Source: a virus
Virus record (IMG/VR): IMGVR_UViG_3300032006_002011
Coordinates: 1 to 64,000 of that record
Length of the DNA: 64,000 nt
Direction: 5' to 3' (one strand)
The notes beneath the pieces were generated by a model. It was not told the DNA's origin. It was given only the letters and a program-made list of their open reading frames with translations, and made no database searches. The position numbers and the translations under genes are program-made. Position 1 is the first letter of the stretch. Each line of letters opens with the position of its first letter. Below, one piece after another: positions 19,301 through 62,709 of this stretch.

Positions 19301-22300
19301 GTGTTGATAGACAAAATTCTATCATTCATAACAGATGCAGACGGTAACAGACCAGAATCCACCTGAGTAATAGAATTGTTATCGTAATATGCAGTATTAT
19401 CTTTCTTGTTTCCAACAAACCGGCATGGCCATGTATACACCATGTTCTCACACGAATCACCCGTATCAAATACCCACAACAACCCCTCCTTGGGGATTAA
19501 TAACCCACCTTCTTCACTTATGCTTGCTGGGTTCTCATTTACCAACACCCACCTTTCTCTAGACCTACTCCAAAATATAAACCATGTTTTTGAGTTATTT
19601 GAAAACGACAACTTACCATTAATAAGAATACCCGACCTATATACACCATTTGCTTTCGCGAACTCACCCACATATGTGCCATCACCATTAACCAACCCAT
19701 CTATTTTAATTATTACATCCGTGAGGCGATCATAGTCTACATCACTGCTCATATCATACTTGATAGGAAGTCTTATTTGATACGACCTTGGCAATGACTC
19801 CACTTTGTACATAGTTGAACCAATTGTATGGACTCCATATATGGACGAAACACCGTACATATCTTGGTCAAGGGCATTGCTAACATAATTCCCTGTATAA
19901 TTAAAATTAAATGTCCTGTTATGATCTGGTTCATTTGCACTATCTGCTCTTTTATATCCTGCGTTTGAAGAAAGCAATACCACCGAAGTATCCTTTGACG
20001 TACCTCCGGGTGTTCTGGGATTTGCGAAAGATGCTATACTGGTAGTGGTATCGTGACATGACAATTTTATGTTATGTAATCTAGTTATCTTTCTCTCATT
20101 TGTCGCCTTTTCAGTAATAGAGTTCAGTCCCAACGGGTTGTTTATATTTTCCAACGATTCACTTGAAATTTTATTAAACTCAGAACGAACTGAAGATACC
20201 AACTTGGCACTTCTGAATTTATTTCTTTCAAGTATGCTCGGTTCAACCAATAAACCCGATATCAAACGGGTTCTGGCGGGAGTTAACTTTTCGATATTTT
20301 CAAACAACGAAGCATCGACATATGCCTTCATAATGTTCAAGTACATAGACCAGTCTATCTGACCGAATCCCTCTTTATAAAACACCCTCTTAAATTGATT
20401 ATATCGTTCATACTCACTTTCATATAAATCCGATGGATCACCTATGTAGTCACCCAATTCAAAATTACCAAAGAATCTTAATATCTCTGTGTTAATCAAA
20501 TCCGTTGGACTGAAAAACACTCCAAGAGTGTTGGTATCGACCGCCAACCTGTCACCCGACTTCTCCGTTGCTCTAGAATAAGGACTTAGTGTTCCTGTTA
20601 GTTTCTGTTCCTCTATTCTGATTTTTTTATTATTAAATGCCTGAGCACCGAATAAGGGAAGTTTTGCGTATTGCCGTCTAGCACTTCCCGTGAAATCATA
20701 GGGAAATTCCCGCGAACGGAAATTCCAACACTCAATTTCTTTAGGAGCATCTTCCCTGAATGCACTATTTAAAATAACTCCATGTGGTGACTCGTCTTGA
20801 GCATGGCTTGGGTTTCCGGCAGCCGTTATATCATAAGGGTAGTCAAAGTTAGATTTAAAAATCAACGACTCATTTAGTGTAAGTGGATCGTCTATATCAT
20901 ATGACTGATTAAATAATATATGATTTTCAAATCGGTCTTCCGGAATTTCAATATTATACATTCTCAGTCGATTAAATGTTCCGCGGTATGTAGAAGAAGC
21001 ATAATTTCCAAAAAATATGTTATTGTAAGAGTTAAACTTGGTAAACGCATCAAATGTGGTAGGTATTAAACTAGAATAACTAACCACCACATCAGCATCC
21101 ACCACCTTCTTAACATACAACTTTAAATATCGTGAGAACTCGGCCGTTGACGAGGTTGATTTCACAAGCATTATGTTATAGTCTCCCGCACCCAATACAT
21201 TTACCGGTGGGTGTGATTTATCTGGACAATAATGTCTACCACTTGCTTCGGATTCGAAGTAAAATCTACCATATCCGTCTTGTTGACGTCCCGGGGAAAT
21301 CTCAACCCCAATCTCCCAATCTGACGAAGCATCCTCATCATTAAATGACTTATCAGAATTAACGAAAGAAATATCAACAGAAACTGGGTTTAGTATACAT
21401 TCGTTATCACTAATCTGACCCACCAAGGTTTCTCCCTCATATAAACCCTCGGTTGGGGTGTAATATATTTTTAACCCAGAAAGTGTTCCACTTGGTATAC
21501 CCGTGTAAGTTATGTGGCCTGCCAGCGTTCCCTCGGGTCCATATACATCAACTGGATACGGAGAGGAGGTGTCATCTTCCATACCGTATACGGGAACCTC
21601 CGTTGTTGCGGATGGTATTGACATACGACCCGACCATTGCCACGTGGAAGATGTTATACCCCCGTCTTGATCCACAATCGGGGTGGAACGAGATACTGCA
21701 TATTCTAATTGGCCGAATTCCGTAGATAAGTTGGTGGTTCTCAATGAATCATCAAATGATAGTTCAAACTCAAGTGTTCTAACCTCATACAAATCAGAAT
21801 TCCAAGGAATTGCAAGATACTGATCGTCCTCTGAAAACTCTAGTTTATAATCAAATATATCAAAACTAAAAACCGAATCGTCCGACTCACCACTCGTTGA
21901 ATATCTTACACCCCCATATTCCTTTATTTTAAAAAGGTGATCTGGGACACCGTAACACCGAAGCAAAGCAGATATAGATCTCTCAGTTCCAATAGTCTTA
22001 AGGATGTGAGGAAGGTTGTTTAATATCCTCCTCCATATTATATCACGACGTTGCTTAATAGACAATTTATCAGATGGTTGAGATGCCGAAATATCATCAC
22101 CCGAATCATCTTGGCCTGAGAATCTTATTCCGAGTGAATTCATTATAAACCATACAAGTTGATTTGGAACTCCCTTGGTTGATTTGTTTCTCGGTTTGAG
22201 AGATGCACCCATATTGGCAATGTAAGTATAAATCAAATCAAAGTGATTTCCGACCAAATTTAGAAAATCAACAAAATCTTCATTAGAATCATCACGAACC

Positions 22301-24528
22301 AAAAACTCTGGTATGTTATTTCCCAGTGCATCATCATTAACTTTATCATATTTATCTGCCTCGTTTGCCCTCTCCAAGTACCAATAATACCCCGCATCAG
22401 ACTTAAAGTCATTTAAATCTTGTGGAATATAACGAGGTGAACGGGATTTGTTATCACCCACACCAACACAATCATACGAAACACTAAATAATGTAGACTC
22501 ATCAAACCCCGAGTTATTAAGTGTGGTCACAACCGAAGAACCCTCGGTACGAGAAATCTCATGTGGTGTCAAATTATCAATTAACACCGAGTCACTAGTT
22601 CTGGACGAACCATAAGCAATCCAGTTTCCAGTTTTAAGGGGACCGGTGTCTGACAAAACCCACCCCAATTCATTACCATCCCAAAACAAGGACCAGTCCC
22701 CTGCTTGGTGTGTATAGATAGGTCGTTCATTAAAGCGACCATCTTCATAATACACACCTTCGTACAAGACCGACTGAAATTTGCTTGTGGATGATGTGGT
22801 GATTACTAAATCGTTCGTGCGGGGCCATGCATCATCACTATTAGTGTAAAACAAAAACCGTTCATATTCAGTAAACGCAGAAATCAACTCATTTGCTTCA
22901 TCGTTTATCTTAACTATATCCATTTCATTTAAAATGGAAACCGAGTCAATTGCAGTGGCCTCTGCTATTGTTCCTAGTAACGAACGGGTTTTTAGAGCAT
23001 AAATCTCATTCTCCGCGTCAGTTCTCTTTCTATACAACTTAGATAACTGAGTTAGTTTAAACACGAAGGCATCTAATTTTTTGCGGGCAGACGAAAACCT
23101 TACAAAATTAGAAAAATCAGAATAATCTATTGACAGCTCGGTGCCCGATGTAATCTTGTTGAAATAATTTGAAATACCCGAGGAAATTTCATTACCCAAT
23201 TCCAATTCATCACTTGTATATTTCTTCGTACCTGCTCCCGAAGTCAGTAATGATACTCTGTCGGGGCCTCTAAGTTTATATGTCGTTGACTTTACTTCTT
23301 CCGTTACTATTACAGTTTGAACGACATCATCTGAACTTGATATATTTGATATGTAAAATCCATCACCCACACCAATTTCGTGTGGAAGTGGTTCTGGTAA
23401 TTTTAATATAGTTGGTTGGTGCTTTACATCATCGTCTACATTCTGAGTCGATGGTGTGTGTTTTAATATTGGATAATTCTCCCCGTTGGTAAAATTCATT
23501 ACATTGGAAAAGTAATTATCAAATCTATTTGCATATAATTCCGTCAAAAAATCCAGATCAAATAAACATATAAATGCAGATTTATAGAAATCTCTCTCAA
23601 CTGAATTGGTCTTAAGTATTCCGAGTTTGGTATGTTTTGAAATTATATACTCAACGCATTTCAAATATTCATCATAAAAATCGGACGATGCAAACGAAGA
23701 ACCATATTTAGATGTAATTGTATTTTCATATAAATCGGCCAACTTAGAATATTGAGTTAAAATATCCTTAATAAGTTTGTTATGGTGATTTGGTTTTATT
23801 GAACTTGGATCAACCCCTAGCAACGTGACCAACGTAGTTTCCAAACTTTTTTCATAGTTGGTGATGGATGATTTTAATTTATCAGAAAACCCCAAACCGG
23901 TATCATCTAACATATAAGAAGTATCAGACCTAAGAAACTTCTTTGTGTCGTGGTATATATGTGCAACCAAAATTCTCTTGTTCAAAAAATTATCATAATC
24001 AAAATTCAACGATGCGTCTTGTGCTCTAATTGAATTTTTCAAACACTCGGGTATAATCTTGATTTCTGTCCGAGAGGGAGAAATTTCAGAAATTACAAGC
24101 TTACTATCCGAGTCGTGCGAACCAACTATATCACTCTTGAACGAAATGCCAACACGATAAATTCCGGACGCCAGGCCGATCTCCTTTAGTTCGGTGACAG
24201 GTGATAGTATAATATTGCCATTTGCTGACGGATATATAGAGTCAAGAACTCTTATGCTCGCGGTGGTTGTCTCCCCATCATAGTTTGTGAACCGCAATTG
24301 CTTTGTTGTATAATTTTCTGCTCCCGCAACTACACCCCACCCTAGCATATTCTCACCGGTAGAATCATACGCACTAAACTCTACTACATCCTTATGAGAA
24401 CTACCAAAGTCAACCCCAACTGGTATTTTTTCAAACGCAAGATCTAGTGTCCCTGGTTCAACATAATACCCACGGGAAAAATCTAAGGTTTGTGTGGATT
24501 CATCAACATATTTCAAATATTGTGGCAT
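13363..24528 (-). CDS. Giant baseplate/tail-fibre protein (3721 aa)
   Basis: A single frame of 11 kb. Residues ~825-870 carry the segment RRILNNLPHILKTIGTERSI, then ALLRCYGVP and IKEYGG, resembling the P2 gpI/T4 gp7-type wedge proteins known to anchor fibres. It is followed by a LamG-like jelly roll (about 900-1200) into which a 95-residue VDVYD/GHITYTG module has been inserted. Later parts contain several ~60-residue units with NG.Y … W.[IL].W … W[VI]L (near 620, 1640, 2320 and 2500). Near the C-terminus a Pro-Thr linker (about 3590-3612) leads to a terminal domain ending in SPSPTPTEQ. It is probably the main wedge-to-fibre protein, with the C-terminal part facing outward. Confidence 0.8.
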   Translation of the reverse strand: MPQYLKYVDESTQTLDFSRGYYVEPGTLDLAFEKIPVGVDFGSSHKDVVEFSAYDSTGENMLGWGVVAGAENYTTKQLRFTNYDGETTTASIRVLDSIYPSANGNIILSPVTELKEIGLASGIYRVGISFKSDIVGSHDSDSKLVISEISPSRTEIKIIPECLKNSIRAQDASLNFDYDNFLNKRILVAHIYHDTKKFLRSDTSYMLDDTGLGFSDKLKSSITNYEKSLETTLVTLLGVDPSSIKPNHHNKLIKDILTQYSKLADLYENTITSKYGSSFASSDFYDEYLKCVEYIISKHTKLGILKTNSVERDFYKSAFICLFDLDFLTELYANRFDNYFSNVMNFTNGENYPILKHTPSTQNVDDDVKHQPTILKLPEPLPHEIGVGDGFYISNISSSDDVVQTVIVTEEVKSTTYKLRGPDRVSLLTSGAGTKKYTSDELELGNEISSGISNYFNKITSGTELSIDYSDFSNFVRFSSARKKLDAFVFKLTQLSKLYRKRTDAENEIYALKTRSLLGTIAEATAIDSVSILNEMDIVKINDEANELISAFTEYERFLFYTNSDDAWPRTNDLVITTSSTSKFQSVLYEGVYYEDGRFNERPIYTHQAGDWSLFWDGNELGWVLSDTGPLKTGNWIAYGSSRTSDSVLIDNLTPHEISRTEGSSVVTTLNNSGFDESTLFSVSYDCVGVGDNKSRSPRYIPQDLNDFKSDAGYYWYLERANEADKYDKVNDDALGNNIPEFLVRDDSNEDFVDFLNLVGNHFDLIYTYIANMGASLKPRNKSTKGVPNQLVWFIMNSLGIRFSGQDDSGDDISASQPSDKLSIKQRRDIIWRRILNNLPHILKTIGTERSISALLRCYGVPDHLFKIKEYGGVRYSTSGESDDSVFSFDIFDYKLEFSEDDQYLAIPWNSDLYEVRTLEFELSFDDSLRTTNLSTEFGQLEYAVSRSTPIVDQDGGITSSTWQWSGRMSIPSATTEVPVYGMEDDTSSPYPVDVYGPEGTLAGHITYTGIPSGTLSGLKIYYTPTEGLYEGETLVGQISDNECILNPVSVDISFVNSDKSFNDEDASSDWEIGVEISPGRQQDGYGRFYFESEASGRHYCPDKSHPPVNVLGAGDYNIMLVKSTSSTAEFSRYLKLYVKKVVDADVVVSYSSLIPTTFDAFTKFNSYNNIFFGNYASSTYRGTFNRLRMYNIEIPEDRFENHILFNQSYDIDDPLTLNESLIFKSNFDYPYDITAAGNPSHAQDESPHGVILNSAFREDAPKEIECWNFRSREFPYDFTGSARRQYAKLPLFGAQAFNNKKIRIEEQKLTGTLSPYSRATEKSGDRLAVDTNTLGVFFSPTDLINTEILRFFGNFELGDYIGDPSDLYESEYERYNQFKRVFYKEGFGQIDWSMYLNIMKAYVDASLFENIEKLTPARTRLISGLLVEPSILERNKFRSAKLVSSVRSEFNKISSESLENINNPLGLNSITEKATNERKITRLHNIKLSCHDTTTSIASFANPRTPGGTSKDTSVVLLSSNAGYKRADSANEPDHNRTFNFNYTGNYVSNALDQDMYGVSSIYGVHTIGSTMYKVESLPRSYQIRLPIKYDMSSDVDYDRLTDVIIKIDGLVNGDGTYVGEFAKANGVYRSGILINGKLSFSNNSKTWFIFWSRSRERWVLVNENPASISEEGGLLIPKEGLLWVFDTGDSCENMVYTWPCRFVGNKKDNTAYYDNNSITQVDSGLLPSASVMNDRILSINTNNVPDDRGRVVGNLSCELYGNFSGKYKVLTRINNEDVWQPKTGYYEVTNYHFEKDGVSKTIFMDGKFSGKLLRGTLGQGGGDFRVTGTVNSANYYDCDNPWTLPTDDVGATIYSINDIVNKESGSITTNLDETVQIKTNYITKEFDSVNLVPVTSTFKTYENTTIRYGEVDSPYVHYDVQNKLEFRHGGDQRISGSYSLAVNHRTTDTFSFPTLLDYSVELTANLRGTTLRDIKVLAHTELDPEHTKYYRIKMKTGLQAVDRPLNVEFSIDSTDSTNPDVSIVSSGSNCVSGYIYEYDYSHQNFTSGNEYIENRDFVARAEQQRSNDPENWDARINSVLTQTIASVDTELSDRNYIYNTYNITELENHDISKVCFFHIKSPSLGSSPHKKHVVQNIWLVGYLEETVTTKKVSGRSEDHIHRVKHSVDKQGLDKVSLSDEIVEWSATPRLGYGLLRPGGTVELSSVFAEHRLAYDSSIVTQDVGFDGGTADKIVYTKNNLHIPIDIKIENPSYKYELEILPFDKDVTYNQSDTLGNYFCVYELTKFNSIDITEFEGQMDMLNGSYLEIGTYNGKSLYRNDRDIDGNYRQNVIGDISGDAHLLPKGFIGRKVNYIFWSDINHRWILLHSNNYSINFTDEQKLYIPHESPVRHDIMWIYGKEDATHPEFNTLYGGDVGYHRNELNTDTPVVDLLNNDEEGYVNLLSAEALGLDTDGNGLVYIFRDPSAVKLFGFKNVALSANGLYRKVNGVSGENPSYTNGRGWYLYWNEDVYTWVLVECVPLATEIRNSMKTTYQQLNLTKYFNTHMPTKWVINLAREFSCRINEDNKFSTHDETDLYIKLGGKTFQQTSDGLGYAPQTGYAYIPSLEQKNKLSYQSSASYFRDTITSSPERLDMLSASSGPVVGNSFRLIPNPHHFARFESDNLAASIEKLAWCIVAKRKTPTLPIPGNYRREGGGAEVILNWIPDDYNTVSVEVDPTRSMYYSNTAKNEKIPRGIYTRVNISLTDTEDDVIFRSTSEEYEIRLKKSTKMNTPDRWIISHVSKPNYSEYYRDMSFQETETLATKLGYIKSTTEVTITPDCTYREKQSEIFPTGSSNVFYTRRTPSAPIPFNPRIPVTNKVPLSTTDEISEDLYINWGHVKKEAVGDVDCRDLKAYPYASPSLVENNIEKNSNIARCDLLNLGVDKPYLYGIGGELAIEVSCGTGASATFNGVYTESREETNTGTSPGDKLFIKRDDPTKYIIQRKSDTDPLYISSTSSSDPNNPSYDIGVAELKNEGVTSCRDIYVSLKTIDVPPLEASPEASLQKRNGVPQDAYDKNVNKLATMLCPHPGEYRMRDNWQSVAMLKLIDLTTVEVSECDIEDANGIYTTTGTMDSNGNAYTFANRNNWIIACMDRKPNSFQSKWVFTDKYETQLSGIVFENVDRFDSEVNPTNHNSADFMQGVFYKFKLTTDDLDSVKSTPTNTLASITAPKLALGDVRNIDPESFLVVNYKLLLGQFKDPQKTQITELDNLNKLKNPSDMSISDMNYDTFEYEVDYSPTTNTTSYHIHPTPVITKLDTLSSEKISSQLDSSVKFSITPISSQQSNLYKITLPIDVTHEPEIFTKDTRENTKVSFSYDGNSLINWSAEFFGVEESGSAVVTSEQIIKQTPLVISSKLNIPNYTGLISDVTLDVKIVITPRCREDYVAEKIHTSVHVDEFEYGIGDGISADGNQLKSWTRQVSKTIPFDYVIERPTQLCDLVNIGTPGSLFTKKKFPIHRSNFRRNIIGRGVNDVSTTANLSGHLNSTSPIVRTRTGSGSPDHFWFIDDTPVVSVVREDPGLIVSPMLSEEKQEKIEFSYSFEDSVELTPTPTPTPTPTPTPTPTPTPVQQCTPTDEYIEVPYSSSEIVMGEFKILISLPTAVVSFNPKEFSETSTEEITIAIKDGNFTVARIITTNTYPDGETPTIYYESEGTCYTATAPEWTIETSLTPSPSPTPTEQ
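13702..13759 (-). repeat. Pro-Thr repeat tract (6-base unit)
   Basis: Short tandem CCNACN-type units encode about 20 residues of alternating Thr-Pro, forming a stiff linker just before the last ~90 residues of the giant protein. Confidence 0.85.
21383..21706 (-). repeat. VDVYD/GHITYTG module nested in the giant protein
   Basis: Encodes EYAVSRSTP, SSTWQWSG, SPYPVDVYG, GHITYTG, KIYY and CILNP, aligning with the five copies in the 2060-residue protein 12 kb away. It interrupts a LamG-like domain whose strands continue on both sides. Confidence 0.75.
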
Positions 24529-52139: not shown

Positions 52140-52173
52140 TATACCGCATTTTAATTTATGGAGATTGCGTTAT

Positions 52174-53049
52174 ATGAAGATTGGAGTTGTTGGTAATGGG
52201 TTCGTGGGTCATGCAATGACATTGCTTAGACCACACGTTGAAGTATTGGTATGGGACATAGTTGCCGAAAAGAGAGATCCAAAGACATTGGATATTGAAA
52301 CATTTGTCGAAGAGTCCGAAATTATTTTCGTTGCAGTTCCTACACCGATGAATTCAGATGGTAGTTGCAACCTAAACATTGTTCGTGACGTATGCGAAGA
52401 AATACAAGAAATAGATGACACCAAGTATATAGTGTTACGTTCTACAGTTCCTCCTGGAACAAGTGAAGAACTTGACGTGGCATTCATGCCGGAATTCCTC
52501 ACGGAAAAGAATTGGAAAACCGATTTTAAAAATTGCGATCAATGGATACTTGGTTCAACCGATCCGTTCTTGTATGAAAAAATGAAACGTATGTTTGAAC
52601 TTGCCCACGACAATGGTAATGGTTCGGTAATAAACAAGAGCGTTATTCAGTGCAAACCAAGTGAAGCAGAAATGATAAAGTATTTAAAGAACGTATTTCT
52701 TAGTGTTAAGGTTGGGTTCTTTAACGAACTTGAGTCAATATGCTCAGAGTTGGACATTAATTATGAAAATGTTCGTTGTATCGCAACCCAAGATAAACGA
52801 ATTGGAAGTGGTCATACTAAAGTTCCTGGACATGATGGACACCGAGGTTTCGGTGGAACGTGTTTCCCAAAGGACACCAATGCACTCGCAAGTTTTGCAG
52901 AAGACAATATGATACCAACTCCGATTCTTGATGCGGTTATCAAAAGAAATGAAGAACTTGATCGTCCAGAAAAAGATTGGATGGCAGATAAAGGTCGAGC
53001 AGTCTCCGCAGAAATCAAATCAAAGAAATCCAAAAAAGAAACCGAGTAA
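52174..53049 (+). CDS. UDP-glucose/GDP-mannose dehydrogenase-like enzyme, lacking the C-terminal domain
   Basis: 291 residues from the ATG at 52174, with GGAG ten bases upstream. The NAD site GNGFVG (7-12), VAVPTPM near 53-59, LRSTVPPGTS near 92-101 and the catalytic Cys in GFGGTCFPKD (about 229) are all present. Full family members reach 390-450 residues because of a second nucleotide-sugar-binding domain, missing here. It should oxidise a nucleotide hexose to a uronate. Start of a plus-strand set with DHH, sulfotransferase, cupin, cytidylyltransferase and epimerase genes. Confidence 0.85.
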   Translation: MKIGVVGNGFVGHAMTLLRPHVEVLVWDIVAEKRDPKTLDIETFVEESEIIFVAVPTPMNSDGSCNLNIVRDVCEEIQEIDDTKYIVLRSTVPPGTSEELDVAFMPEFLTEKNWKTDFKNCDQWILGSTDPFLYEKMKRMFELAHDNGNGSVINKSVIQCKPSEAEMIKYLKNVFLSVKVGFFNELESICSELDINYENVRCIATQDKRIGSGHTKVPGHDGHRGFGGTCFPKDTNALASFAEDNMIPTPILDAVIKRNEELDRPEKDWMADKGRAVSAEIKSKKSKKETE

Positions 53050-53052
53050 GAT

Positions 53053-54006
53053 ATGGACTACTACGATTTCTTTAATGGTGATGCGGATGGTATCATAAGT
53101 CTACATCAATACAGAACGCACTATCCAAAGAACTCCAAGTTGTTTACTGGAGTCAAACGTGACGTGAAGTTACTTAGACATTGTACCGACATAAAAGACT
53201 CCATGTTTACTGTGTTTGATATATCCTTGCTTTCCAATGCAGACTATATAAAACCAATATTGGATAATGGAAATCATGTCAAGTGGTTTGACCACCATGA
53301 ACCAGGTGAAACGGAACTGGGAGATAACTTTAGCATCAAGGTGGATGCAGACCCCAATTGTTGCACAAACATATTGGTTGATGAGTATTTGAATGGTTTG
53401 TATCGTCCGTGGACAATATGTGGAATATATGGAGATAACCTCCACGAACAAGCAGACAAATTTAATCCATGCTTCAACAAAGAGTCAATGAACAAATTAA
53501 AGGAAGTTGGTGAAACATTAAACTACAATGGATATGGAAACGAGGAACTTGACTTGACTGTTCACCCCAAAGACGTATATCTTGACCTGAAGGATTATGA
53601 ATCTCCGTTCGAATACAGAAAGAAGTCGGAAACCTATCACAAGATTCACACACAGATGACCTCAGACGAAGCAGAATTAAGTTCTTCGGAAATTATATAC
53701 GATACGGAAGTTGGAATGGTTATCATCTTACCCAACACAAGAGCATCAATAAGATATTCGGGAATTTATAGCAATCAACAAACAACAGATAATCCAGACA
53801 AAGCATTTGCAATACTTACTTCAGTAGACGGAGGGAACTACCGCATCAGCATTCGTTCACCAAAAACAAATCCATACGGAGCAAGCAAACTGGCATTGCA
53901 GTTTCCAACGGGGGGTGGGCGTGAGAAAGCTGCGGGAATAAACGAACTCCCAAAGTCAGAACTAATAAATTTTATTTCAAAGTTTGAAGAAGTATACGGA
54001 AAATGA
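53053..54006 (+). CDS. DHH-family phosphoesterase (NrnA/pAp-phosphatase-like)
   Basis: 317 residues. NGDADG (8-13) and the DHH of WFDHHEP (about 79-85) give the DHH domain with its metal site; GGGREKAAG (287-295) is the substrate-binding DHHA1 motif. The family includes RecJ, nanoRNases and pAp phosphatases; NrnA does the last two. Here it overlaps the sulfotransferase gene by 4 bases. Sulfotransferases release 3'-phosphoadenosine 5'-phosphate, so pAp removal would fit. That link is inference. Confidence 0.85.
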   Translation: MDYYDFFNGDADGIISLHQYRTHYPKNSKLFTGVKRDVKLLRHCTDIKDSMFTVFDISLLSNADYIKPILDNGNHVKWFDHHEPGETELGDNFSIKVDADPNCCTNILVDEYLNGLYRPWTICGIYGDNLHEQADKFNPCFNKESMNKLKEVGETLNYNGYGNEELDLTVHPKDVYLDLKDYESPFEYRKKSETYHKIHTQMTSDEAELSSSEIIYDTEVGMVIILPNTRASIRYSGIYSNQQTTDNPDKAFAILTSVDGGNYRISIRSPKTNPYGASKLALQFPTGGGREKAAGINELPKSELINFISKFEEVYGK

Positions 54007-54632
54007 TTGTATCTCATAAGCACAAGTTCATATTTTTCAAACCGTGGAAAGTCGGTGGTAATAGTGTTGAACATAATTTGATTGAGCATTGTGGTGATAA
54101 AGACTTAATAGACACAACACACAGAAATCCCAAAGACACCCTTGACATAATAGGAAAACGAAAGTTCAACAAGTACTTTAAGTTTACAATCGCAAGGAAT
54201 CCTTGGGATAGAATGGTTTCTTATTTTTGGTGGCAAGACGGGGGTTTGGTAGGAAAGAATCACAGAAAGAACATTAACAAACTTGTAAAGATGCAGTTTA
54301 ACGGATATCAGTTCAAAGAACAATTTGCTCGTTGGATTGGAAACTATTCCCACTTCAACCAACCTTTCTATTTTGATGACAAAGGAAATCCAATAATGGA
54401 CCACTATATGAAGTTTGAGAACCTGGACAACGACTATAAGAAAATTTGCAAGAAGCTAAAGTTACCATACAAGAGTCTTAAAAAAATAGGAACATTTCCA
54501 TTCAAGAAAAAGAATGAAGAATATTGGAAATATTACAACTATGAGTCGGGTGCGGTAATTGCACAACGACACAAAAAAACAATAGAAATGTTTAATTATA
54601 CGTGCGGTCCCGCACCAAAGAAAGATATTTAA
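54003..54632 (+). CDS. Sulfotransferase-family protein
   Basis: 209 residues. The 5'-phosphosulfate-binding loop is KVGGNSVE (16-23) and the 3'-phosphate-binding stretch is ARNPWDRMVSYFWW (about 64-77), as in type 2 (carbohydrate) sulfotransferases that use PAPS. The C-terminal half is basic and Trp/Tyr-rich. The acceptor is unknown; a glycan made by the neighbouring glycosyltransferases is the natural guess. The start overlaps the DHH gene by 4 bases (ATGA), the closest coupling of the set. Confidence 0.85.
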   Translation: MIVSHKHKFIFFKPWKVGGNSVEHNLIEHCGDKDLIDTTHRNPKDTLDIIGKRKFNKYFKFTIARNPWDRMVSYFWWQDGGLVGKNHRKNINKLVKMQFNGYQFKEQFARWIGNYSHFNQPFYFDDKGNPIMDHYMKFENLDNDYKKICKKLKLPYKSLKKIGTFPFKKKNEEYWKYYNYESGAVIAQRHKKTIEMFNYTCGPAPKKDI

Positions 54633-54636
54633 TTAT

Positions 54637-54888
54637 ATGAAGTTATCAGATGTCAAAATAGAAAACGATCAAATAGTTCTGAAATTTGATTATCGTATGT
54701 ATGGCATTGGTGATGATATTACCATGATGCACGATTTGAAATTGTGGTCAAACCCAAAGAAAGTTTGTGAAGACTTGGTAAATACCGCAAATGGTATTAT
54801 AGATATATTAGAACTTGATATGGAAATTAAATCGGTAGAAACAAAGTCCGACATTTCTTCACAAGACTTGTCCGACAGATGGGGATAA
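54637..54888 (+). CDS. Small acidic protein, unknown
   Basis: 83 residues, not recognised. It has two strand-like segments at the start (IENDQIVLKFDYRMYGIGDD) and acidic C-terminal stretches. It lies 4 bases after the sulfotransferase and 4 before the cupin gene, so it is in the operon. Confidence 0.5.
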   Translation: MKLSDVKIENDQIVLKFDYRMYGIGDDITMMHDLKLWSNPKKVCEDLVNTANGIIDILELDMEIKSVETKSDISSQDLSDRWG

Positions 54889-54892
54889 AATT

Positions 54893-55264
54893 ATGAGTGA
54901 ACAAGACGAAAGCATTAGACCTTGGGGAAATTACGAAATTCTCCTAGACGCAGATTACTGCAAAGTTAAACGCATCTTTGTAAAACCCGGACAACGACTT
55001 AGTTATCAGTACCACCACAAACGACAAGAAGCATGGACGGTCGTTAGTGGAGTTGCAAGAATAACCTTGGATGACGTTACCGAAGATTACAAACCAGGTG
55101 AAACTGTTTTGATTCCACTTGGTGCAAAGCATCGCATGGCAAACCCAAGTGATGACGAAATGATGATTTTAATTGAAGTTCAAACAGGAACTTATTTTGG
55201 TGAGGACGATATTGTGCGTGTTCAAGATGACTATGATCGTCCAGAAAAACACGAATCGGAGTAA
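54893..55264 (+). CDS. Cupin, mannose-6-phosphate isomerase (type II C-terminal) like
   Basis: 123 residues. RPWGNYEILLDADYCKVKRI, PGQRLSYQYHHKRQEAWTVV and the closing GETVLIPLGAKHRMANPSDD follow the C-terminal cupin domain of mannose-1-phosphate guanylyltransferase/type II isomerases. The metal ligands HH…E…H are visible. It should isomerise a sugar phosphate such as mannose-6-phosphate/fructose-6-phosphate, feeding GDP-sugar synthesis. It is followed 4 bases later by the cytidylyltransferase gene. Confidence 0.85.
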   Translation: MSEQDESIRPWGNYEILLDADYCKVKRIFVKPGQRLSYQYHHKRQEAWTVVSGVARITLDDVTEDYKPGETVLIPLGAKHRMANPSDDEMMILIEVQTGTYFGEDDIVRVQDDYDRPEKHESE

Positions 55265-55268
55265 CCTT

Positions 55269-55676
55269 ATGAAAACAGTAGCAGTTAGTGGATACTTTGA
55301 CCCAATTCATGTGGGACACTTGGAATACCTTGAGTTGGCAAAAGAACTTGGTGATCGTCTTGTTGTTATCGTAAACAACAATCATCAATGTGTTCTTAAA
55401 AAAGGCAAACCATTTATGGATGAAGCAGACCGAGTAAAAATCGTAGAAGCACTCGGAATCGTTGATGAGGCATTTCTCAGCATTGATAAGGACAAAAGTG
55501 TATGTGCTTCACTCGATGCAATTAAACCAGACATCTTTGCAAATGGTGGAGACAGAAGTGTGGGTGAAGTTCCAGAAAGTGTTGTTTGTAAGAAACATGG
55601 AATAGAAATGGTTGATGGTCTCGGCGACAAAATCAGAAGTTCTTCTGACCTGACTGGACTAAAAGAAAAGAAGTAA
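55269..55676 (+). CDS. Cytidylyltransferase-like enzyme (HxGH nucleotidyltransferase)
   Basis: 135 residues from the ATG at 55269; the longer upstream frame runs inside the cupin gene. The start SGYFDPIHVGHLEYLELAKE holds the HVGH motif (14-17), and IRSSSDL near the C-terminus replaces the usual ISSTxI motif. The family joins CTP or ATP to a phosphorylated alcohol or sugar (glycerol-3-phosphate, ethanolamine phosphate, D-glycero-heptose-1-phosphate). Which substrate applies is not visible. It follows the cupin by 4 bases. Confidence 0.85.
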   Translation: MKTVAVSGYFDPIHVGHLEYLELAKELGDRLVVIVNNNHQCVLKKGKPFMDEADRVKIVEALGIVDEAFLSIDKDKSVCASLDAIKPDIFANGGDRSVGEVPESVVCKKHGIEMVDGLGDKIRSSSDLTGLKEKK

Positions 55677-55695
55677 GGTTTGTCTACTTATAGTT

Positions 55696-56601
55696 GTGGA
55701 CAAAGTACTTATAACAGGTGGTGCGGGATTTGTCGGAACTGCACTAATTAAAAAACTTATACGCAAGTATAAGAACATTGAAATTGTTTCCATTGACAAT
55801 TATAGTAGTGGTTCGGTGAACAATCATGTAAAGAGCAAGAAAGTAACTTATCTTGATAAGGATACTCAAAACTTAGTTCCCAAAAAATTCGGCATGAACG
55901 ATACCAAGATGGACATTGCCGATGCATTTGAACCAGATGTCGTTTTTCATTTCGGTGAGTTCTCAAGAATCGTAACGAGTTTCGATTCTTTTGATAATTG
56001 TTGGGACTACAATATGCAAGGCACAAAAATGGTTCTTGATTATTGTGTCGCAAAAAAAGCAAAGTTGGTTTATAGTGCAAGTTCAAGTAAGTTCGGAAAC
56101 GATGGGAAGGACGAAAACCTTTCTCCATATGCTTGGATGAAAGCAAAGATGGTTGAACTAATTAAAAACTATTCAGAGTGGTTTGACTTAAAATATGAAA
56201 TCACCTATTTCTATAATGCGTATGGACCAGGACAAATAAGAACTGGGGATTATGCAACCGTCATCGGAATCTTTGAAGAGCAATACTCCAAGGGAGAACC
56301 ACTTACAGTTGTAGAACCAGGTGAACAATCAAGAGACTTTACCCACATCAGTGATATTGTACGGGGAGTTATACTGGCCGCAGAGAAAGGAAGGCAAGAT
56401 GAGTATCCCCTCGGCACGGCAATTTCACATAAAATTATTGATGTGGCAAAAATGTTTAACCATGAATATGTTATGATTCCAGAAAGGAGAGGTGAGAGAT
56501 TTTACGGAAAAGCAATTCCCTCACTAACTTATCAGCATCTTGGTTGGGTAGCAAAAATTAAGTTGGAAGATTATATTTCAAAAATCATATGTAAAAAGTA
56601 A
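55696..56601 (+). CDS. NAD-dependent sugar epimerase/dehydratase (SDR family)
   Basis: 301 residues from a GTG at 55696. TGGAGFVGTALI (7-18) is the NAD-binding glycine loop; the catalytic Ser is in YSASSSKFG (near 124) and the Tyr/Lys pair is in YAWMK (about 145-149). The extended-SDR pattern NAYGPGQ then SRDFTHISDIV fits nucleotide-sugar epimerases such as UDP-glucose 4-epimerase. Substrate not determined. No clear ribosome site before the GTG, so it may depend on readthrough from the cytidylyltransferase gene 19 bases upstream. Confidence 0.85.
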   Translation: MDKVLITGGAGFVGTALIKKLIRKYKNIEIVSIDNYSSGSVNNHVKSKKVTYLDKDTQNLVPKKFGMNDTKMDIADAFEPDVVFHFGEFSRIVTSFDSFDNCWDYNMQGTKMVLDYCVAKKAKLVYSASSSKFGNDGKDENLSPYAWMKAKMVELIKNYSEWFDLKYEITYFYNAYGPGQIRTGDYATVIGIFEEQYSKGEPLTVVEPGEQSRDFTHISDIVRGVILAAEKGRQDEYPLGTAISHKIIDVAKMFNHEYVMIPERRGERFYGKAIPSLTYQHLGWVAKIKLEDYISKIICKK

Positions 56602-56620
56602 TTGACTTATTTTAGTCAAT
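56601..56620 (+). promoter_or_regulatory. Inverted repeat over the -35 box of the five-gene operon (operator candidate)
   Basis: Arms ATTGACT and AGTCAAT, 7 bases each, separated by 6 bases. The left arm contains the -35 box, so a bound dimer would block polymerase. A ribbon-helix-helix protein is encoded at 44518. Confidence 0.5.
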
Positions 56621-56630
56621 GGGCTATAAT
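56602..56630 (+). promoter_or_regulatory. Strong sigma70-type promoter of the AsnB-to-methyltransferase operon
   Basis: TTGACT, 17-base spacer, TATAAT. The ATG at 56641 follows 10 bases after the -10 box. A perfect -10 and 5/6 -35 make it the best promoter seen in the window. Confidence 0.75.
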
Positions 56631-56640
56631 ATATGATACA

Positions 56641-58287
56641 ATGTGCGGTATATTAGGCGGTAACCAATTCAACGATATAGAACAGGTCAAAACTGGTCTG
56701 GCATCTATCATGCATCGTGGTACGGACGGAAACGTAGTGTTCCACTTCAAAGAAAATGACTTCTATATGTGTCATAACAGGTTGTCTATTCAAGACTTAT
56801 CAGAGTCAGCAAATCAACCGCTCATATCAGAAGATGAAAAATTTATTTTGGCATTTAACGGGGAGATGTGGAAACCATTCTTTAGGAAGTTCAATTCCAA
56901 ACTAAGAAAAAAATACAACTTCAAGACTGAGCGGAGTGATTCGGAGTTGTTACTTTATTACTTAATAGATAATCGTGACAACATATTGAAGTCAATGAAG
57001 AAACTTGACGGAATGTTTTGTTTTGCTTTTTATGACATAGAAAGAAACGAACTTACGTTGGGCAGAGATTTCATCGGAAGGCTTCCTTTATACTATGCGT
57101 TTGAAAAAAACAAAATAGTTTTCTCAAGTGAAGTAAAGGGAATACAATCGGCAAAACCAGAATATAAGTTTTTTAATGTAGACAGAAGTCGTAAACCACC
57201 CGAGGGACAGGAAGAGAAAATAAAGGTTGTAGAACCAGGAACAATTGTAACGGTTTCCAAAAATTTCTTTGGTACTATCAGTTGCGAAATCAAACGATGG
57301 AACGATTTCAAACCCGAGTTCAACCCAGAGAACCCAACCCTATATACTCGTTCCGAGACAGACTTAACCCTACTTGAAGGGGAGGACTTAGGAATTGACT
57401 ATTACGCATCCGAGTTCAGAAAACGGTTGGAAAAAGCAGTTGACGATGAATTGATTAGTGACACCCCAATCTGTACGATTTTAAGTGGTGGCATTGATAG
57501 TACAATCATCACATATCTTCTAAAAAAGAAGAACCCAGACATTGAAGCATTCGTGGTAAACGTAACGTCAAACAGAAAGCAGACACTAAAAGATGACTTA
57601 TATTATGCCAAGATAGCTGCCAACGAATTGGGAGTTAGGTTACACGAAGTTAATGTCAGCAAAGACGATATTGAAAACAATCTAAAAGAAAGCATCTGGG
57701 CATCCGAGACTCATAAGTGGACACAGGTATCTCCTGCGGTTGCTCAACTATTCTTGTCGTGGGAAATCCGTGACAAAGGATATAAGGTTGTATTTGGTGG
57801 AGAGGGAGCAGATGAAATCTTTGCAAGTTATGGAGACGTCAAGAGATTCTGTTGGCCCGACCCACTTGCTTGGCATCAAAAAAGAGTCAACCTCATCAAC
57901 AACCTTCACAAGAATAATCTCATCAGAACCAACAAGGCAATGATGTATGGTGGCAAGGTAGAATTGAGAACTCCGTTTCTAAACAAGGAAGTTATTGATT
58001 TCGGTTTAAGGATTCCGACCAGATATAGAGATGAAGCAGATGGTAAGGGAAACATAATGAAGTATGTTTTGCGGAAAGCATTTGAGGGAGAGATTTCAGA
58101 AGAACTTCTCTGGAGACCCAAAAAGACTTTTCAACAAGGATGTCACACGGATTACTTAAAGAAGGAGCAGGAGACCATAGATAAATACTTTAATGAATTG
58201 TTCGTTGAAAACAAAGTTCCTGCCAAATATATTGGTAGGAGTATTGGTCATGTATCTGCTAGAATCAAAGTAAAGGAGATGGCATGA
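56641..58287 (+). CDS. Asparagine synthetase (glutamine-hydrolysing) family amidotransferase
   Basis: 548 residues from the ATG at 56641, which puts the catalytic Cys at position 2 as required for a class II glutamine amidotransferase. The N-terminal domain has MCGILGG, HRGTDG and FNGEM. The ATP-pyrophosphatase domain has LSGGIDST (about 280) and GGEGADE (about 386). AsnB uses glutamine to amidate a carboxylate; relatives such as WbpS do so on uronic acids in O-antigens. The stop overlaps the next gene by 4 bases. First gene of five overlapping ones. Confidence 0.88.
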
Positions 58288-59093
58288 ACATATTACTAAA
58301 AGACAAATCAGACCTCGGTGAAGTAGACAAGTTTATCCCCAATGCCCATGTTCTTGGAGCAATGCAAAAAGCAGACGGCATTCCAACCCAAGACATTAAA
58401 GTAATATCCACCAAGTTCAGCAAGGTGGGCAAGACCACCCTAGACAAATACCCAAACCTTGAGTGGGTTGTTCACAGAGGTCATGGGGTTGATTCGGTCA
58501 ACCTAAAGTTATGCAAACAACATAACGTGGGAGTCGTTGCAACAAGCCCAAACACAAACGGATGTGCTTACTGGATAAAGGATAAACTGATTGAGGGTGA
58601 TTGCGTTATATTCGGCAACGGAGTCATTTCCAAAAAAGTTCAAGGTATCGTTGAAGAAAATTTTGAAATTATAAATTCAAAGACGGATAGTGCAACAATT
58701 AAACAGATAGTGTCACTTCCCAATATCAAAAACATAATCACAACAGTACCGTTGAATGATTCCACAAAAAATATGTTTGATGCAGAATTGTTTGAAAACT
58801 GCAACTCGGTGAACTTTGTATCCATCAGTCGTGCGGAATGCCATGACAATTTAGCCTTGCTTTCTCTGATAAACGGTGGTAATATAGCATCCGCACATAT
58901 TGATACATTGGGAACAGAGTTAAGGGAAGAACTAATCGACACCGAAAAAGTTAAATACTACAATCACACCTCATGGGATTTCCTTGGGGAAAAGAACGAT
59001 CATAAAAAGTTGAGTGAGATTATCAACGATTGTTTGAATGACAAAGTAAGCAATGCAATTTTAGAAAGGCAAGAAAACAAATGGTTTCAGTAA
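58284..59093 (+). CDS. D-isomer 2-hydroxyacid dehydrogenase-like protein
   Basis: 269 residues, shorter than the usual 310-330. The N-terminal domain has [14 protein letters not shown], the NAD-binding loop FGNGVIS is visible (normally GxGxxG), and the likely catalytic Arg in SISRAE, Glu in GTELREEL and His in YNHTSW occur in family order. It should reduce a keto acid or oxidise a 2-hydroxy acid (or 3-phosphoglycerate) with NAD(P). Substrate unknown. Overlaps of 4 bases upstream and 13 downstream show tight coupling. Confidence 0.7.
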
Positions 59094-60289
59094 AAGAAAA
59101 GAAGACACAGAAAGTCAAAGTCAAGGATGACATTTCAGATGAAGTTAAGGATGCGTTTAGGAAACACGCAAAGTTTTATCAGGAATACGATGTTCCACCA
59201 CAGTGGAAAGACCAACCCATTGCGTGTAAAGAACCCAACCTAGATCCATTTAAGAAAATTAATTGGAAGAACTTATGGGAAGCAGACCGAAAGGGAAGGT
59301 TGTTTTGGCACGAAGATGAAAACAATGAAATTGTATGGAGTTACATTTGTGCGGAAGCAAAGTCGAGTCGTGGTATCAAGGATATAGCAGAAGATGTCGT
59401 GGCAACCATCAAGGCAGGTGATTTGCAAATCTCACGATTCGCATATGCACCCGAATGGAAGCAAGAGTTAATTGATGACATTGAATCCAAACGTGAATTG
59501 GAAAACGACTTCTTCAACACCAAGAGAGACTTATTTTTTACAGACGTCAACATGGAACTTCAACAAGACAAAGATGTCTGCGAGGCACTAAATGCAACTT
59601 GGTTGAGTAGCAAGGTAACCGCAGTTGGATCGGAAGTCCGTGGTATTTGGTATGAAGGCGAATTGAAGCAACCCGGTGTATCCAAGTACGAAGACATCAA
59701 AATTAAAAAGATGAAACTATCTTCTATCAACAAAAAGGAATGTGCGGAACTTGTTCAAGAAATCAAAGATTACAAGGAAGCAGTTAATCCTTGGAGTTAT
59801 GATGGAATCAACGGAAACTACGGAGGACCAGAAAAGACTTGGTACACCATTGAAGTAGTTCCAATTAATCCCAATAGTGAAACTGACTATACGATTCTTG
59901 AGAAACTTCCCAAACTTGCCAAGATTGTAAACGAAATAACTTCAGTTGACAAATGCACTTGGTTGGTTATCACAAGAGTAGAACCAAAGAAGGGAGTCAT
60001 TCAACGGCATACCGACATTGGTCACGATAGTTGGGACTACCAAACCAAAAATGGTCCTAAACTTGGTCGTTCTCTGCGAGTACACTTCCCAATTCAAGTT
60101 GACGAAGATTGTGTATTCACTCAAGTTGGACTTGACGGAGAAACCGAAGACTTCCGTTTAAAGACGGGGGAATATTACTATATGGATAAACGCAAACCTC
60201 ACTGGGTTGTAAACAACTCCGAAGATTATAGGTTTCATGTAATCATGGATTTGGAGTGTGAACAAAAACACTTGGATGCTCTCCTTTAA
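59081..60289 (+). CDS. 2-oxoglutarate/Fe(II) hydroxylase-like protein (aspartyl/asparaginyl beta-hydroxylase type)
   Basis: 402 residues. The C-terminal half carries the double-stranded beta-helix site: His and Asp in RHTDIGH (about 310), the second His in KPHWV (about 374) and the co-substrate Arg in YRFHVIMD (about 384), preceded by LRVHFPI. This is the Asp/Asn beta-hydroxylase order. The first ~230 residues are not recognised. It should hydroxylate an unactivated carbon of a peptide or small molecule with 2-oxoglutarate and O2. The next gene starts inside its last codons (14 bases). Confidence 0.75.
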
Positions 60290-61157
60290 TTTCAATACTC
60301 CCACCGAAGAATATTCTTGTGATGGTCGTTCTGTTTATGTAAAACGGGATGATTTGCTCAACGGAGATATGGACTTACCTCCTTGGGCAAAGATGGAAGG
60401 CATCCGCAGGGTACTTGAAAGTGGTGACCTAAACAAAGATATTCCAATTATACACTTATCAGTTCGTGTAAGTTATAGTGGTTGGGCATTGGCATATATA
60501 GGTCGTGAACTTGGGTTTGACATTAAGATTGCTTATCCAGATAGTAAGGACTACCCAAAAGAAGCACTTAAAAAGATAGAGAGTTTCGGTGCGGAAACGG
60601 TGCCAATTAAACCCAACCTACTTAGCATTGTGCTGAACCGAGTTAAGGCAATGGCAAAAGAAGAAGGATTTCAAATGATGCCGTATGCGTTTAATCACCC
60701 TGCTTATATTGATTATTTCCAAACAAGGATGCAAGATATATTAAAAGAAACAGATTTTGACCACCTTGTTATTAGTGGTGGTAGTGGGGTTACGGGTTCG
60801 GGTTTAATCCGTGGGTTTATGGACTTTGATAGTTTTTTCCCCAAGAAGAAAGTCCACATTATTTCTACTGCATCGGAGAATTCCATTGCAAACGTATTAA
60901 AGAAGTGGAACGCATATCACAGAAGCAACATCCGAATTCACGAAACCGAACATGATTTCTTTGATGACATGGATTGGTGCGAAGTTCCATTTCCGTGCAA
61001 CGGAAATTGGGATAAGAAAGCATGGATATGGTTACAAGAAAATGCTCGCAATTTAGACGGAAGCGTACTATTCTATAATCTTGGTGGACATAGTGCATCA
61101 TATTTTTGGAAAACACAAAATGAAGAAATACTTTTACGAGAAGAACAACCTAACTGA
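60276..61157 (+). CDS. PLP-dependent enzyme, fold type II (ACC deaminase/D-cysteine desulfhydrase-like)
   Basis: 293 residues from the ATG at 60276. VYVKRDDLLNGD near the N-terminus, the cofactor-phosphate loop SGGSGVTGSGLIRG (about 168-181) and LGRE/LGF helix spacing fit the ACC deaminase/D-cysteine desulfhydrase group. The usual schiff-base Lys should fall in PPWAKMEGI (about 35). The normal substrate-binding QSN is replaced by RVSYSGW, so the substrate probably differs. Overlaps the hydroxylase by 14 bases and the methyltransferase by 38. Confidence 0.72.
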   Translation: MLSFNFNTPTEEYSCDGRSVYVKRDDLLNGDMDLPPWAKMEGIRRVLESGDLNKDIPIIHLSVRVSYSGWALAYIGRELGFDIKIAYPDSKDYPKEALKKIESFGAETVPIKPNLLSIVLNRVKAMAKEEGFQMMPYAFNHPAYIDYFQTRMQDILKETDFDHLVISGGSGVTGSGLIRGFMDFDSFFPKKKVHIISTASENSIANVLKKWNAYHRSNIRIHETEHDFFDDMDWCEVPFPCNGNWDKKAWIWLQENARNLDGSVLFYNLGGHSASYFWKTQNEEILLREEQPN

Positions 61158-62709
61158 GTGTAAGGTCAATATCACATTTCATGAACTTCTTCAGAAGAAC
61201 GGAGAAGAACTTGAACAATGGATAGACGAACTTAGAAACTATATCGTTGAGACATGGGATAAGCAGGGGTTACCACCAAGAACAGGTAAAAACGAAAAAG
61301 ACATCATCGCTCAGTTCAATAAACTTCAACGATACGACACCAAGAAGTTTCTACATAAAGATGAAATGGATGGAACTATGACCATCGTAAAGAACTTCAA
61401 TAAGTTTGCAACTGTCATTGACCAATTCTTTCCAACGATGCTCAAGACCAAAATTGGTTCAAGCAAACACACGTCTTGGAGTGTATATGATTGCTTTGCC
61501 AATCCAGAGAAACGAGAAAGTTTTCATACTTGCATGAGACGAACGATACGCAGAGATTCCTTTTTTGCTCATGGAAAAACGATAGGAAAAAACGATACCT
61601 CAGTTCCGTGTCCAACTGAAGATGGTGAGGAGTGGGTTAGGAACTTTGTCAAGGAAAAGGAACTTCACCCCGAGAACGACTTTTGGATTATTGAATTGTT
61701 CACCGAAAAGAAGTTTGACTCGTATGAAGAAAGTAGTTTGATGTTGACTGCAAAGCAAATCAAGAAATTGTACAAAGAAGGTTTACTCGAAACAAACAAC
61801 ATTAGAAATCTTGAACGAACCGCAAACTTCGGTGACGATATGGAAAACCTAAACGACACCATCATTGAAGATGAGAAGGAAGTTAATTTTAAATTCAGCA
61901 TTCGTTATTACGACAAGACTTCTCGTATTTTTCCTTCAGCAATGGAAGCATTCAAACTTGGGTTGAGTCAACCGGCGGTAAACTTTCCTCCTCTGACTGC
62001 AAAATATATATACCAGAAGTACACGGATCACGTGGACAACAAAGATGATATTACCATATATGATCCAAGTTCTGGGTGGGGTGGAAGAATTCTCGGTGCT
62101 ATGAGCATTGATGATAGGCAGATTCATTATGTTGGAACTGACCCAAATACCGACAACTATATTGATGAAATTGGAAAGTCTCGTTACGAATATGTTGCCG
62201 ACTTCTTCAATGAAAAGACCAATGGTGGTAATCCGTTCTTTGGCCATCGTAATACATATGATGTTTATCAAGACGGAAGTGAGGACATTCACAAGAACCC
62301 ACGATTTCAGAAATACAAAGGTAAACTTGATTTGGTTTTTACAAGTCCACCATATTTTAATCGTGAACAATACTCAGCTGACGAATCTCAGAGTTTCAAA
62401 AAGTTTCCTGAGTATGAAGATTGGAGAGACAACTTTCTTCGTCCCACGTTGAAAACCGCATCGGAATATCTAAAGCATGATCGTTATCTATTGTGGAACA
62501 TTGCGGATATCGGTGATGGGGATGGATTCATGCCACTTGAGCAAGATAGCAAAGATATTCTTGCGGAATACGGACTTGAGTATGTTGAAACTCTTAAGAT
62601 GCTTATGACAACAATGAGAGGAGTCAAGGCAGAACAGGTAAAGAATTGTTGCAAGATAAACGGAGAACTACAGAAGTACGAACCTATATTTGTGTTCTAC
62701 AAGAAGTGA
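61120..62709 (+). CDS. DNA methyltransferase-like protein with long N-terminal extension
   Basis: 529 residues from the ATG at 61120. The SAM-binding motif I is DPSSGWGGR (about 315-323) and the catalytic motif IV is TSPPYF (about 408-413) as in amino-group (N4-cytosine or N6-adenine) methyltransferases. The first 300 residues are unfamiliar in restriction systems (HELLQKNGEELEQWIDELRN, CPTEDGEEWVRNFVKE), but recur in phage proteins as I recall. No restriction enzyme gene is adjacent. Because it overlaps a PLP enzyme gene by 38 bases, a role in an unusual base modification is possible. Its stop abuts the next gene's stop. Confidence 0.8.
   Translation: MKKYFYEKNNLTECKVNITFHELLQKNGEELEQWIDELRNYIVETWDKQGLPPRTGKNEKDIIAQFNKLQRYDTKKFLHKDEMDGTMTIVKNFNKFATVIDQFFPTMLKTKIGSSKHTSWSVYDCFANPEKRESFHTCMRRTIRRDSFFAHGKTIGKNDTSVPCPTEDGEEWVRNFVKEKELHPENDFWIIELFTEKKFDSYEESSLMLTAKQIKKLYKEGLLETNNIRNLERTANFGDDMENLNDTIIEDEKEVNFKFSIRYYDKTSRIFPSAMEAFKLGLSQPAVNFPPLTAKYIYQKYTDHVDNKDDITIYDPSSGWGGRILGAMSIDDRQIHYVGTDPNTDNYIDEIGKSRYEYVADFFNEKTNGGNPFFGHRNTYDVYQDGSEDIHKNPRFQKYKGKLDLVFTSPPYFNREQYSADESQSFKKFPEYEDWRDNFLRPTLKTASEYLKHDRYLLWNIADIGDGDGFMPLEQDSKDILAEYGLEYVETLKMLMTTMRGVKAEQVKNCCKINGELQKYEPIFVFYKK

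Follow-up and report, generated by a model that had tools for sequence, protein, structure and literature searches.

A five-gene enzyme block in a viral DNA fragment as a candidate cassette for DNA-base hypermodification

The locus raised the question of what five overlapping genes, encoding enzymes of five different families, make together in a phage. The window, the whole stretch of 64,000 nucleotides that was analysed, was part of a 77.6-kb virus record (G000), which is probably itself a fragment. No published description of the five-gene set was found in a literature search (a 2013 survey by Iyer et al. and a 2022 pathway paper lay outside its scope). A DNA-level search of isolate phages gave no match to the block, and the full five-gene block was absent from every isolate phage searched.

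Genes and promoter of the block

The block consisted of five genes on the plus strand, and recomputation gave exactly the overlaps of 4, 13, 14 and 38 bases that the initial annotation had reported. The first gene (56641–58287; 548 aa) encoded an AsnB-like glutamine amidotransferase (Pfam Asn_synthase and GATase_7), the second (58284–59093; 269 aa) a short D-2-hydroxyacid dehydrogenase-like protein (Pfam 2-Hacid_dh), the third (59081–60289; 402 aa) a 2-oxoglutarate/Fe(II) dioxygenase of the Asp/Asn beta-hydroxylase type (Pfam Asp_Arg_Hydrox), and the fourth (60276–61157; 293 aa) a fold-type-II PLP enzyme (Pfam PALP). The fifth gene (61120–62709; 529 aa) encoded a SAM-dependent transferase, designated as MTase1; the Pfam search gave no match for it, and phage DNA-methyltransferase PHROGs matched over its C-terminal part.

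The start of the first gene had been placed at a TTG at 56602. This TTG is the -35 box, and the true start is the ATG at 56641, which gives an MCGIL N-terminus with the catalytic Cys2; class II glutaminases require an MCGI start. The predicted sigma-70-like promoter TTGACT-17-TATAAT (56602–56630, plus strand) was located 10 nt upstream of the AsnB start codon and was the sole exact match to its pattern across the window. It had been called the best promoter of the window; with 11 of 12 consensus bases, it ranked best in the stretch of 44.5–64 kb that the ranking covered. A similar promoter was present at the equivalent place in two relatives (L006 and L011) and was less well kept in L045, and comparison of relatives showed that it was not kept in L003–L005. 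The operator reading of the inverted repeat TTGACT..AGTCAA was rejected, since the repeat was one of 182 with 6-bp arms in the window, a chance-level frequency, and was not conserved in relatives.

Upstream of the block, positions 52165–56601 carried a nucleotide-sugar set (UGDH, DHH-like, sulfotransferase, cupin, cytidylyltransferase and epimerase genes), the sulfotransferase of which was not found in L006 and L011. On the minus strand of the window, very long ORFs were located at 13363–24528 (3721 aa) and 3892–10074 (2060 aa).

Catalytic residues were present in all five proteins, and all five genes were under purifying selection (pN/pS 0.07–0.37, with synonymous sites near saturation). In AsnB, the Cys2 nucleophile and a loop motif of 10 residues were intact. 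The dehydrogenase kept R183, E216 and H228 together with the nucleotide-binding loop, and no relative of it was found in 50,697 phage records. Alignment of the hydroxylase showed that H310, D312, H374 and R384 were invariant, corresponding to the HxD...H iron site and the 2-oxoglutarate arginine. The PLP enzyme had its PLP lysine at K39 and a PFPCN..DxKAWxWL signature in common with the PLP enzyme of phage M6. Its structural model was good (pLDDT 87), with D-cysteine desulfhydrase, threonine deaminase and ACC deaminase relatives nearest; these neighbours of the model do not fix its reaction.

MTase1 consisted of an N-terminal region of about 270 aa followed by a Rossmann core with DPSSGWGGR and TSPPYF motifs; both motif I and the [DNS]PP[YFW] catalytic motif of DNA amino-methyltransferases (N4-cytosine or N6-adenine) were found. 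The SPPY motif was present in 144 of the 145 MTase1 proteins. The AlphaFold model was moderate (pLDDT 78) and gave no substrate, because the Foldseek matches were only generic class I methyltransferases; a PDB search with the MTase profile returned nothing below threshold.

A second SPPY methyltransferase paralogue was encoded by the same virus (G000 74237–75454; L284:10237–11454), and a similar second copy was found in 6/6 relatives searched. It was directly followed by an ordinary-looking C5 cytosine methyltransferase with PCQ and GNAVP (G000 75433–76575; L284:11433–12575), which was not found in the 12 other cassette records. These two enzymes at the record end show that the phage of the window also has other DNA methyltransferases.

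Co-inheritance of the genes and exchange of the enzymes around MTase1

A total of 2.9 million viral contigs were scanned, which, together with a few loci that other tools contributed, yielded 278 loci in 179 clusters. Co-inheritance was counted on distinct contigs (clusters) of at least 12 kb, a non-random sample, the loci having been fetched by scans with these same genes. Among the 37 such contigs with the PLP enzyme, AsnB was present in 32, the type-1 SPPY MTase in 28, the dehydrogenase in 22, the hydroxylase in 13 and a thymidylate-synthase-like gene in 12. The scans confirmed 146 relatives of the PLP enzyme and 97 of AsnB; both genes are thus rare, and their co-occurrence is not due to chance. 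At least five gene orders were observed (AsnB-HADH-AspH-PALP-MTase; MTase-PALP-HADH-AsnB-AspH; MTase-AsnB-..-HADH-AspH-PALP; AsnB-HADH-PALP-MTase2-AspH; MTase-PALP-HADH-MTase-AsnB-..-AspH), indicating that the association was kept through rearrangement. The proposal that the genes form one pathway-like block was borne out by this conservation in relatives, and they are not chance neighbours. Occurrence of the genes apart from one another had been named as evidence against such a system; subsets did exist (the MTase alone, or the MTase with the PLP enzyme), but AsnB, the PLP enzyme and the dehydrogenase travelled together.

Neighbouring genes, as read from the sequence, placed the block between a DNA polymerase and a RecA-like gene in L007 and L008, and between RNR/thioredoxin and DNA polymerase genes in L021, L183 and L187; MTase1 adjoined sliding-clamp or clamp-loader genes in L021, L183, L187 and L268. 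Next to the cassette in L187 (6549–7718), a fused ABC-ATPase and acetyltransferase protein was encoded; PMC7824862 mentions a coupled protein of this kind where it treats DNA modification. The cassettes of L010 (7570–9214) and L012 (7657–9259) contained a pair of inserted, conserved genes without a family assignment, one ParB-like and one HNH-like by eye. A distant Asp/Asn-hydroxylase gene was found beside an SPPY methyltransferase, without other cassette genes, in L026–L039 and L212–L215, and in L029 and L214 a small acetyltransferase gene lay between the two.

In the close relative L199, the upstream sugar genes, MTase1 (88% identical) and the downstream gene were all kept, but the place of AsnB-HADH-AspH-PALP was taken by another hydroxylase, a small ORF and another PLP-like protein. 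The swapped cassette (L199 7422–13158) carried these genes before two tandem MTase1 copies; the PLP-like protein had no Pfam match, but it matched PLP profiles and kept the C-terminal signature. This exchange uncoupled the block from the sugar genes and left MTase1 as the constant member. MTase1 is therefore the constant hub around which the other cassette genes are swapped, and the suggestion that the methyltransferase comes last was not supported.

In 12 contigs, a thymidylate-synthase-like gene took the place of the dehydrogenase alongside AsnB and the PLP enzyme. The short proteins encoded at L143:7826–8509 and L183:7790–8485 (228–232 aa) had Asp at the 177 position, with the methanogen type as the best NCBIfam match. 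The 16 distinct motif strings listed for the 25 copies of this homologue all had Asp where the dUMP enzyme of M6 has Asn. Asp at this position has been tied to modified cytosine (PMC8670742), and this dCMP-type variant points to cytosine as the putative target. In a tree of the PLP enzymes (FastTree, no formal test), dehydrogenase-bearing and synthase-bearing cassettes interleaved; the dehydrogenase and the synthase homologue therefore look like alternatives in one pathway.

Candidate function and rival explanations

Relatives of three of the enzymes were found in isolate phages, in recognisable DNA-hypermodification loci, at distant identities of 24–33% to the enzymes of M6, LilMcDreamy and TurkishDelight. 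A PLP profile built from the cassettes without M6 found the M6 enzyme at 5e-29, and at 0.001 it matched no solved PLP-enzyme chain in the PDB. The M6 gene, whose product we take to be the PLP decarboxylase of the published pathway, was flanked by a Pfam amino acid:DNA transferase and a radical-SAM gene. A scan of a genome collection gave one match, itself an M6-like cluster. In mycobacteriophage LilMcDreamy, the relative of the hydroxylase adjoined an amino acid:DNA transferase, in a row with ParB and a weak Tet_JBP match. The AsnB relative of phage TurkishDelight, which bears the glutaminase, adjoined CmoX-like and CmoA-like genes; the locus had two ParB genes and a C5 enzyme with the SPPC and GRAVP marks of CmoX, and its CmoA-like gene scored below the family cut-off.

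Judged by these data, the five genes probably form a DNA-base hypermodification cassette. A hypermodified DNA base, which had been proposed initially, was thus the best reading of the product, as a candidate. We infer that the enzymes act on DNA, with a target base, a product and a sequence of reactions as follows. The constant DNA-facing enzyme would be MTase1, whose SPPY type modifies exocyclic amino groups (N4 of cytosine being the most likely), and the other four enzymes would work on an amino-acid-like group attached to that base. The PLP enzyme would remove or rearrange groups at the alpha carbon, AsnB would use glutamine and ATP to amidate a carboxylate, the dehydrogenase would interconvert a 2-oxo acid and a 2-hydroxy acid, and the Fe/2-oxoglutarate enzyme would hydroxylate a carbon. 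Their combined action would yield a bulky base modification able to block host nucleases and to hide the viral DNA from bacterial defences. If DNA bases are hypermodified, cytosine is a somewhat likelier target than adenine.

The group that MTase1 transfers may be methyl, carboxymethyl or aminocarboxypropyl. No enzyme loading an amino acid on DNA was found in the cassette records, which speaks against the hypermodification reading in that the amino-acid group lacks a source. It is tentatively conceivable, although we would not expect it, that MTase1 transfers from SAM the aminocarboxypropyl (amino acid) arm, and not the methyl, to N4 of cytosine or to a different exocyclic amine, and that the PLP enzyme, AsnB, the dehydrogenase and the hydroxylase then rework this arm. 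An amino acid would thereby become attached to DNA with no need for an amino acid:DNA transferase. This would add one more hypermodification route to those that use hydroxymethyl-pyrimidine and carboxymethyl handles, and would account for the minimal pairs of MTase1 and PLP enzyme.

Close to the alternative raised at the outset, the four enzymes other than the methyltransferase could also work with the upstream nucleotide-sugar genes and supply a surface glycan with a modified amino acid or amide. The block directly followed sugar genes in the window, L003–L006 and L011, and AsnB-like enzymes occur in capsule and LPS loci; but it was present without sugar genes in L007, L008, L010, L012, L021, L183 and others, L199 retained the sugar genes while the block was swapped, and the nearest recognisable settings of the PLP enzyme, the hydroxylase and AsnB were DNA-modification loci. 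The L199 swap and the cassettes in replication modules without glycan genes thus weakened the glycan reading, which we consider unlikely. About equally improbable is that MTase1 works as an ordinary DNA methyltransferase, with a separate metabolic pathway, formed by the remaining four enzymes, adjacent to it by chance in some phages. MTase1 was alone in many contigs (no partner was detected in 25 of the clusters of at least 12 kb) and may, being so often partnerless, be an ordinary methyltransferase; in several lineages it lay 2–9 kb away from the PLP gene. However, the type-1 MTase accompanied the PLP enzyme in most of the contigs counted above (28/37), a distant PLP enzyme abutted or overlapped MTase1 in eight loci (L199, L202, L205, L211, L248, L253, L255 and L269), and a ParB-MTase gene was paired with a PLP gene in mycobacteriophage Vincenzo.

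Modification of RNA (e.g., tRNA) or protein instead of DNA was also considered. Most of the known aminocarboxypropyl and carboxymethyl chemistry comes from tRNA. This background (see also PMC12783734) and the mixed fold matches of the MTase in the PDB, with RNA and small-molecule methyltransferases among them, would fit such a role; the near-universal SPPY motif, the matches to DNA-methyltransferase PHROGs, the location in replication modules and the relatives in DNA-modification loci argue against it and make it very unlikely. A defence-system reading was rejected, as PADLOC gave only weak generic methyltransferase and QueC matches.

Comparison with known hypermodification systems

Phage DNA hypermodification itself is of a known kind, and the cassette was compared with four systems. 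With Mom of phage Mu (N6-carbamoylmethyladenine), an amide end product may be common, and there was no Mom-type acetyltransferase among the five genes. With the LilMcDreamy locus, the cassette shared an Asp/Asn-hydroxylase-type enzyme beside DNA-modifying genes; LilMcDreamy differed in having a TET/JBP-like dioxygenase (a weak match) and an amino acid:DNA transferase, the latter not found in the cassette records.

The thymidine hypermodification system of Pseudomonas phage M6 (5-NedU) shared the PLP-enzyme family with the cassette, the match extending over the full length and including the PFPCN..DxKAWxWL and VFWN motifs, and the two have in common the idea that additional enzymes reshape an amino acid once it is appended. 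It differed in that the record of the window has the SPPY transferase, AsnB, the dehydrogenase and the hydroxylase instead. The amino acid:DNA transferase (PF18724) was found in none of the 13 cassette records, while the same search was positive in M6, LilMcDreamy and L278. The HMUDK helical domain was not found in these 13 records (fragments, searched without a positive control), and no thymidylate synthase, including the dUMP type that gives 5-hydroxymethyl-dU, was found in the record of the window or its close relatives, which are fragments. M6-type membership was rejected on these three absences, although the PLP enzyme is of the M6 family.

With the CmoA-CmoX-CmoY system of Synechococcus phage S-B43 (PMC12783734), the cassette shared a base-modifying transferase of the SAM family and an AsnB-like amide ligase. 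In that system, the ligase was shown experimentally to join glycine to carboxymethylcytosine in DNA, and the glutaminase-bearing type is the second largest ligase cluster (PMC12783734). The cassette transferase is of the SPPY amino type, whereas CmoX is of the C5 type with SPPC and Arg, and the cassette adds a PLP enzyme, a dehydrogenase and a hydroxylase. The Cx-SAM synthase CmoA (TIGR00740) was found in 0/13 cassette records, which are fragments, a host copy being possible. A CmoX-type C5 transferase (SPPC and Arg) was likewise found in 0/13, only G000 having a C5 enzyme, the one with PCQ and GNAVP. CmoAXY membership was therefore rejected. As CmoA, the amino acid:DNA transferase and HMUDK were not found in these 13 fragmentary records, the cassette is assigned to neither of the two published pathways, although an enzyme of the host might stand in, and MTase1 is consequently the only candidate for a putative first step on the base.

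In marine phages, at least three sets of partner enzymes, exchangeable for one another, occurred around the MTase1 hub. To our knowledge, the phage DNA hypermodification routes described so far begin with hydroxymethyl-pyrimidines, carboxymethylcytosine, deazaguanines or Mom; in the cassette, a transferase of the SPPY type was the only enzyme seen that would attack the base. If the hypermodification reading is true, a family of unknown cytosine derivatives is predicted, with the genes making each of them named.
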